From Bacteroidia bacterium (lineage in GTDB: Bacteria > Bacteroidota > Bacteroidia > Chitinophagales > JAUHXS01): DNA of 64,000 bases. Below the pieces are notes generated by a model that was given only the letters and a program-made list of their open reading frames with translations, did not search any database and was not told the DNA's origin. Shown here piece by piece: positions 20,003-23,466 of the stretch (position 1 is its first letter; the number at the start of each line of letters is the position of its first letter). The stretch lies in the NCBI GenBank assembly GCA_030426955.1, contig JAUHXS010000013.1:1-64000 (forward strand). Reading direction: 5' to 3'. The position numbers and the translations under genes were made by a program.

Positions 20003-20797
20003 ATGGTAAGGCAAGATCTTCTCAAGATACTGGAAAAGAACTATCAACTTTTTAATCGAAATTCCTTTGTTGAGAATGACCCTATATCTGTTCCTCATCG
20101 ATTTTCAAGGAAACAGGACATCGAAATAACTGGTTTCTTTGCGGCAACTTTTGCTTGGGGACAACGCAAAACAATTATCAATAAGAGTAATGAACTAATT
20201 GGTTTAATGGATAACACTCCTCATGACTTTATTGTAAATCACAAGGAGTCTGATTTAAAACGATTTCTGAATTTCAAACATCGAACTTTTAATGCAACCG
20301 ATACTTTATATTTTATTCATTTTTTAAAGCATTTTTATACTGCAAATAATTCACTGGAGAGCGCCTTTAGCTTAAATCTAGATACGAACGAACCTGCCAG
20401 TCGGCAAGGCAAGCGTTCGTTCGTATCCAGATTAAGTAATTTCCATCAACTCTTCTTTAATCTTCCTAATGCTCCAGAAAGAACTAAAAAACACGTTGCC
20501 ACTCCAATAAGAAAATCTACTTGTAAAAGACTATGTATGTTCTTAAGATGGATGGTAAGAAAAGATGATTCGGGTGTTGATTTTGGCATTTGGAATAGTA
20601 TAAAGCCTAGCGAACTACATTGCCCGCTTGATGTTCATGTAGAACGAGTTGCTCGAAAACTGGGATTAATCAAAAGAAAACAACGGGATTGGCAAACGGT
20701 TGTTGAATTGACTGAAGCCCTCAGAACATTCGACCCAAAAGATCCCGTAAAGTATGATTTTGCATTATTTGGAATGAGTATTGAAGAAAAGCATTAA
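20003..20797 (+). CDS. TIGR02757 (DUF2400) family protein with an in-frame palindromic repeat
   Basis: 264 residues, matching the TIGR02757 family throughout: PHRFSRKQDIEITGFFAATFAWG at the start, RKSTCKRLCMFLRWMVRKDD, SGVDFGIWNSI, CPLDVHVERVARKLGLI and DPKDPVKYDFALFGM. The family is widespread in Bacteroidota and has no established biochemical function; its fold is related to helix-hairpin-helix DNA glycosylases. Residues about 123-145 are encoded by a 66-base inverted repeat that keeps the frame (see repeat entry) and look unlike the family. Its stop overlaps the stop of the convergent M28 peptidase gene by 4 bases. Confidence 0.85.
   Translation: MVRQDLLKILEKNYQLFNRNSFVENDPISVPHRFSRKQDIEITGFFAATFAWGQRKTIINKSNELIGLMDNTPHDFIVNHKESDLKRFLNFKHRTFNATDTLYFIHFLKHFYTANNSLESAFSLNLDTNEPASRQGKRSFVSRLSNFHQLFFNLPNAPERTKKHVATPIRKSTCKRLCMFLRWMVRKDDSGVDFGIWNSIKPSELHCPLDVHVERVARKLGLIKRKQRDWQTVVELTEALRTFDPKDPVKYDFALFGMSIEEKH
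20371..20436. repeat. 66-bp palindromic element inside a coding sequence
   Basis: Left arm 20371-20393 and right arm 20415-20436 are inverted copies (13 bp GATACGAACGAAC / GTTCGTTCGTATC perfect, then CTTAA(A)TCT(A/G) continuing), around a 21-base loop that contains CTGCCAGTCGGCA. The length is exactly 22 codons and the reading frame stays open. The encoded residues (LDTNEPASRQGKRSFVSR) are charged and atypical for the family. It resembles the concept of Rickettsia palindromic elements, which sit in frame in genes. The loop shares the CTGCC..CGGCA core of the element at 23370-23466. Confidence 0.75.
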
Positions 20798-23369: not shown

Positions 23370-23466
23370 CGTCATTTTGAACGGAGTGAAAATCTACCTT
23401 TATATAATACACAAAGTTAGACCTGCCTGCCGGCAAGACAGATTTCTCCTAACGTCAGAAATGACG
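23370..23466. repeat. Imperfect palindromic intergenic element with CTGCCTGCCGGCA core
   Basis: Outer arms CGTCATTTTGAACG and (reverse complement of the right end) CGTCATTTCTGACG, then inner arms GAGTGAAAATCT and GGAGAAATCT, pair across about 97 bases. The middle carries CCTGCCTGCCGGCA at 23422-23435. It lies between the stop of the large surface-protein gene and the start of cysS, both on the minus strand. It looks like a dispersed, MITE/REP-like repeat; it could also act as a transcription terminator for the surface-protein gene. Confidence 0.65.

Follow-up and report, generated by a model that had tools for sequence, protein, structure and literature searches.

Palindromic DNA inserted in frame into protein-coding genes is mostly known from Rickettsia and from a few REP-rich genomes. 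MITEs are small, non-autonomous, dispersed elements of 70–300 bp that can fuse with host reading frames and usually carry terminal repeats and target duplications. Rickettsia palindromic elements (RPEs), about 150 bp in length (PMC10969869), are palindromic and dispersed and lie in frame in unrelated genes whose protein is apparently still made (PMC10969869, PMC3733652). REPs are multi-copy palindromes of 20–40 bp; intragenic examples come from Opitutus terrae and Rickettsia conorii, and Bacteroidetes have CGTC repeats (PMC3733652). Here, we analysed a 64,000-nt stretch of DNA (the window) in which a TIGR02757 gene carries an inverted repeat. The feature very probably represents the insertion of a non-autonomous mobile palindrome of 20–21 bp, termed P1, into a loop at the surface of the TIGR02757 protein. 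The elements of the locus are as follows:

20003–20797, + strand: TIGR02757/DUF2400 family gene of 264 aa, identified by profile matches and carrying the insertion
20371–20436, + strand: the whole composite inverted repeat, in frame in the TIGR02757/DUF2400 ORF
20382–20392, + strand: inner left arm ATACGAACGAA, the left half of a second palindrome, P2, which is found without P1 at two other loci
20393–20413, + strand: window copy of P1 in its 21-nt form, CCTGCCAGTCGGCAAGGCAAG, covering codons 131–137 (PASRQGK); the inserted unit
20414–20426, + strand: inner right arm CGTTCGTTCGTAT, the right half of P2, matched when the flanks of P1 are joined

The profile search assigned the ORF at 20003–20797 to TIGR02757 (E 5.5e-67) and DUF2400 (E 8.9e-89). 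The hairpin scan of the window ranked the repeat at 20371–20436 first (−28 kcal/mol; runner-up about −19 kcal/mol). Its arms, at 20375–20393 and 20415–20433, are 19 nt long and 95% complementary, are separated by a spacer of 21 nt, and reach about 22 nt if one indel and one mismatch are allowed. The reading frame is open across the entire repeat. By the hairpin scan and the ORF check, the inverted repeat reported in an earlier note is present where that note placed it, in frame and far above chance. The AlphaFold model of the protein had a pLDDT of 92.9, and its sole low-confidence internal loop comprised residues 121–140, between helices. The best Foldseek matches of the model were OGG1/endonuclease III, with weak E-values; the model suggests an HhH base-excision glycosylase-like, DNA-repair-like fold for the uncharacterised TIGR02757 family.

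To establish how much had been inserted, we compared the loop between the conserved positions SLE.AF and F...F in 28 TIGR02757 homologues. All of them belonged to other families within the order and none to the same genus or family, so that no P1-free sister allele of the window gene was seen among them. The loop comprised 17 residues in 21 of the 28 homologues and 13–22 residues in the remainder, compared with 24 residues in the window protein, a difference at odds with the 22 added residues claimed before. Removal of PASRQGK leaves 17 residues, and in the alignment these seven residues face a gap in the homologues; a loop of variable length is present at the site in the homologues, but the 21-nt core is missing from it. 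A genome search with the 66 bases returned one other partial match only (C9:41851–41890, 85% over 40 nt), inside an ORF. This second arm-sharing copy lies in a fused E1 alpha-beta dehydrogenase gene and is read from the opposite strand; the E1 linker has 38 residues in this genome, compared with 29–36, mostly 30–31, in 29 homologues. Since 24 residues equal the homologues' modal 17 plus seven, only P1 appears to have been inserted, its arms bringing no added length. Judged from these lengths, P1 accounts for exactly seven added residues in both the TIGR02757 and the E1 gene, and the arms for none.

P1 is a dispersed family of micro-palindromes with a 20-nt form, CCTGCCTGNCGGCAGGCAGG, which is the perfect palindrome CCTGCCTGCCGGCAGGCAGG, and a 21-nt form, CCYGCCTGMCGGCRAGGCAGG. 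The window copy has three mismatches to the family consensus, and its end position is ambiguous by one base. Copies were counted by pattern searches with reversed patterns as control. In this genome (3.4 Mb, 23 contigs), 17 places matched the 21-nt form with at most three mismatches and three places carried the 20-nt form, with none in either reversed control, giving about 20 copies of both forms. Two further features of the window belong here:

23370–23466, no strand assigned: larger imperfect palindrome CGTCATTTTGAA...GAAATGACG, a repeat of the CGTCATT...AATGACG type that encloses the intergenic P1
23422–23442, + strand: degenerate intergenic P1 copy, CCTGCCTGCCGGCAAGACAGA, whose core is shared with the window loop

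The core common to the loop at 20393 and the element at 23422, to which the earlier note had drawn attention, was not significant from the window alone (reached in 16 of 100 shuffles) and was confirmed by the genome-wide count. The CGTCATT...AATGACG-type repeat hosts P1 elsewhere in the genome too (L042, L143, L146, L150, L156), and many intergenic P1 loci are nested in it in the manner of 23370–23466. That note had proposed a mobile, in-frame palindrome resembling RPEs. The kind of element was right, the same pattern being found in other genes and genomes, while its extent was not, the unit being the 21-nt loop rather than the 66-nt repeat. It had also named, as findings that would speak against mobility, an equivalent segment of the same length in homologues from unrelated genera or a lack of other copies in the genome; these were half found for the 66-nt version, but not for the 21-nt core with its roughly 20 copies.

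The T9SS-type proteins and TIGR02757 suggest that the host belongs to Bacteroidota. We searched for P1 across genomes of the phylum. The exact 20-nt form was present in 25 of 296 genomes and the exact 21-nt form in 19 (36 genomes for the two together), with reversed controls at 0. Several of the positive genomes were single contigs of 3.5–4.5 Mb, which argues against misassembly as the cause. Copies were also found in contigs labelled viral, and a plasmid search for P1 gave nothing convincing. A scan of 84,980 genomes with the GAACGAACC core returned mostly GC-rich chance matches, with true P1 in three (L062, L070, L075). L062 is a Planctomycetota genome; P1 ranges over the whole phylum and seemingly beyond it. 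One match of 20/20 nt in G036 (L044) was judged to be chance because it encodes TNEPASHG, which we take to be part of a common surface-protein motif.

Empty sites were sought by joining the flanks of P1 and looking for the joined sequence elsewhere. Two copies of a RAYT-flanking repeat in G171 gave a base-exact pair, the filled site reading GAGTGTCG[P1]GACTCTAC and the empty site GAGTGTCGGACTCTAC. The junctions of other filled/empty pairs agreed at 58/58, 41/41, 34/34 and 61/62 bases, and coding segments that are repeated or paralogous (L256/L265 and L250/L121) agreed as well. No target duplication was seen at the filled/empty pairs. The aligned pairs demonstrate, at the level of sequence, that P1 enters sites without target duplication or loss. 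The flanks were weakly biased, with A or G at −1 and an A-rich stretch before it. Targeting of hairpin loops was considered as a rule and rejected, as the joined flanks formed stems in 8 of 123 copies compared with about 5% at random sites; the window copy is an outlier in sitting in a hairpin loop.

P1 also lies within genes. Among loci below 50% GC, with mechanical ORF calls and ORFs of at least 150 aa, 25 of the 62 copies of the 21-nt form were internal to an ORF, compared with 5 of the 53 copies of the 20-nt form. The Fisher P value of this difference (2e-4) is indicative, since some copies are related and perhaps not independent. Of the 25 cases, three (L147, L273, L283) may fall outside the true coding part, and three of the five 20-nt cases belong to one repeat-rich stretch of a single genome (L133) where the ORFs are probably spurious. 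Fourteen of the 25 in-ORF 21-nt copies encoded LPAGKAG or LPDGKAG (same strand, phase 2) and seven encoded PALPAGR or PASPAGR (opposite strand, phase 0), so that two of the six frames held 21 of the 25 copies (P = 3e-7, likewise indicative given possible non-independence). Each of the other four frames yields a cysteine or, for the TGAC version, a stop. The window copy uses one of these disfavoured frames, in which PACRQGR or a stop would be expected; its critical codon is Ser, giving PASRQGK. Both selection and the phase of insertion may underlie the frame bias.

Pfam domains were found in all 20 P1 host proteins scanned. The hosts included E1, Tex (with two P1 copies), kynurenine monooxygenase, penicillin amidase, UvrD and proteins with T9SS sorting domains, and P1 occurred in many unrelated genes in both orientations. 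In the alignment of kynurenine monooxygenase with PDB 6lkd, the P1 peptide coincided with a gap of exactly seven residues. The carA and purL genes carry the 20-nt form as seven-residue peptides in frame, and their PDB alignments were not clean at the site. Type I methylase (HsdM) genes from three genomes (L239, L243, L249) carry P1 in frame at different positions. A separate observation concerns a MetH-like ORF (L262:1–2985), in which an in-frame DUF559 nuclease-like domain between B12-binding domains adjoins a P1 copy.

The arms of the window repeat require their own account, since a bare 21-nt insertion leaves unexplained that they match P2 and are partly common to the E1 copy. Once P1 is removed, the inner arms ATACGAACGAA and CGTTCGTTCGTAT make up P2, and P1 was inserted at its exact centre, within the one-base ambiguity. 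P2 without P1 occurs, with one mismatch each, at G000:C12:33617, a few bases before a tetR-type ORF, and at C2:129815, about 200 bp before a thioesterase-like ORF; these loci are exact empty sites for the boundaries of the window P1. In this placement P2 looks operator-like, and the two loci, each a near-perfect 24-bp palindrome, may hold an operator of the tetR-type regulator. No match to P2 with at most one mismatch was found in 197 other genomes of the phylum, which points to a palindrome private to this lineage. The whole 66-nt palindrome, P2 arms and P1 together, might have moved as one RPE-like unit that replaced a similar length of host sequence; the E1 copy does have 15 nt of the left arm (14 identical) beside P1, and P2 is found twice elsewhere in the genome. 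We nevertheless consider this unlikely, as both genes return to their ancestral modal length without P1, P1 alone and not the arms recurs in other copies, and P2 is missing from the other phylum genomes searched.

A possible account of the arms, though one we would not favour as it stands, is that P1 entered the centre of a pre-existing quasi-palindrome whose arms were then perfected by template switching, which would fit within the main explanation. The distal arms encode residues of ancestral type (FSLNL, RLSNF) according to the homologues, and the exactly central insertion agrees with it, whereas the identity of the 12-nt inner half-site with P2 at two other loci is not predicted by template switching alone and P1 shows no general preference for hairpin loops. 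It is very improbable that the hairpin is a regulatory or structured RNA or DNA site within the gene, such as a terminator, operator or riboswitch: the operator-like position of P2 near the tetR-type gene would suit such a role, but the window contained no Rfam match and P1 is spread over unrelated genes in either orientation. Least credible of all is that the palindrome arose by chance in a loop that evolves fast, or through faulty assembly; the loop does vary among homologues, but the same 20–21 nt recur in 36 of 296 genomes, with several on single large contigs and none in the controls. Insertion of P1 alone is the reading retained here.

The 21-nt form would be tolerated in genes because its length equals seven codons and because all six frames of its TGCC version are free of stops; of these frames, selection would then mostly retain the two whose peptides are short, flexible and without cysteine (LPAGKAG, PALPAGR). 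The TIGR02757 protein is predicted to have probably kept its function with P1, since the loop varies in length and lies outside the conserved core. Our best guess for the movement of P1 is a single-strand, hairpin-based route through a Y1/HUH transposase or, within the same hairpin route, capture of P1 during repair of a nuclease break. Y1/HUH transposases act on hairpins and leave no target duplication. GIY-YIG nucleases and HUH transposases are, as leads only, candidate mobilisers.

Six loci in several unrelated genomes have P1 at an identical position (GGATA^GAGC or its equivalent) in the D arm of an orphan 5′ tRNA half; each lies close to a GIY-YIG ORF and to a version of that tRNA sequence without P1:

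D-arm tRNA-half loci with P1: G000:C9:66487 (L040/L134), G000:C11:470339 (L154), L200, L109, L282 and L189

These look like a mobile GIY-YIG/tRNA cassette. A further locus, L226 (G322:C1:120000–123000), is a tandem array of five units, each about 450 bp long and containing both a GIY-YIG ORF and a P1 copy within the T arm of a tRNA. Complete tRNA genes were rejected as P1 sites, ARAGORN recovering a tRNA across the junction in 1 of 172 copies; the other tRNA-related cases were orphan halves or pseudo-copies. This genome has three RAYT-like and two IS200-type transposase genes. The RAYT genes of this genome were rejected as carriers of P1, the RAYT-like loci being without nearby P1, and one IS200-type locus gave a weak P1 match only. 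The single RAYT locus with P1, in G171, is the insertion of P1 into a RAYT-flanking repeat described above.

P1 appears to rank among the smallest mobile DNA elements to write themselves into proteins. We put forward tentatively, at somewhat less than even confidence, the broader reading that P1 is a phylum-wide mobile micro-palindrome of 20–21 bp, the smallest known protein-coding mobile element, which inserts without duplicating its target, is connected with GIY-YIG nuclease/tRNA cassettes and has repeatedly supplied core proteins with seven-residue peptides that lack cysteine. A near-fixed 21-nt unit in dozens of genera, in E1, Tex, kynurenine monooxygenase and HsdM, would make micro-palindromes a general source of loop extensions. 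With the filled/empty pairs, the way in which very small palindromes insert becomes directly testable. LPAGKAG, LPDGKAG and PALPAGR serve as a marker for searching any protein database and would account for odd loop insertions in annotated proteins. A literature search, with subscription journals outside its coverage, gave no match to the P1 DNA and none to LPAGRQ-type peptides; the sole PAGKAG match was an apparently unrelated virus paper.

Compared with the known systems, P1 resembles GTAG/CGTC REPs in being short, palindromic, dispersed and multi-copy. It differs from them in that no fixed GTAG or CGTC tetranucleotide stands in its flanks and, for GTAG REPs, in that no RAYT-like gene of this genome is flanked by P1 as its cognate carrier. 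The missing tag argues that P1 is not a REP of this type, and its frequent nesting inside CGTC-type repeats argues that it is a different unit from them. Like MITEs, P1 is small, non-autonomous and dispersed and fuses with host reading frames, but it is 20–21 bp long, without terminal repeats or target duplication, and is not classed with them. The likeness to RPEs, drawn from their described features, is that P1 too is palindromic, dispersed and in frame in unrelated protein genes; the two differ in that RPEs measure about 100–150 bp and belong to Rickettsia, whereas P1, well outside that length, spans 20–21 bp, adds seven residues and occurs phylum-wide.
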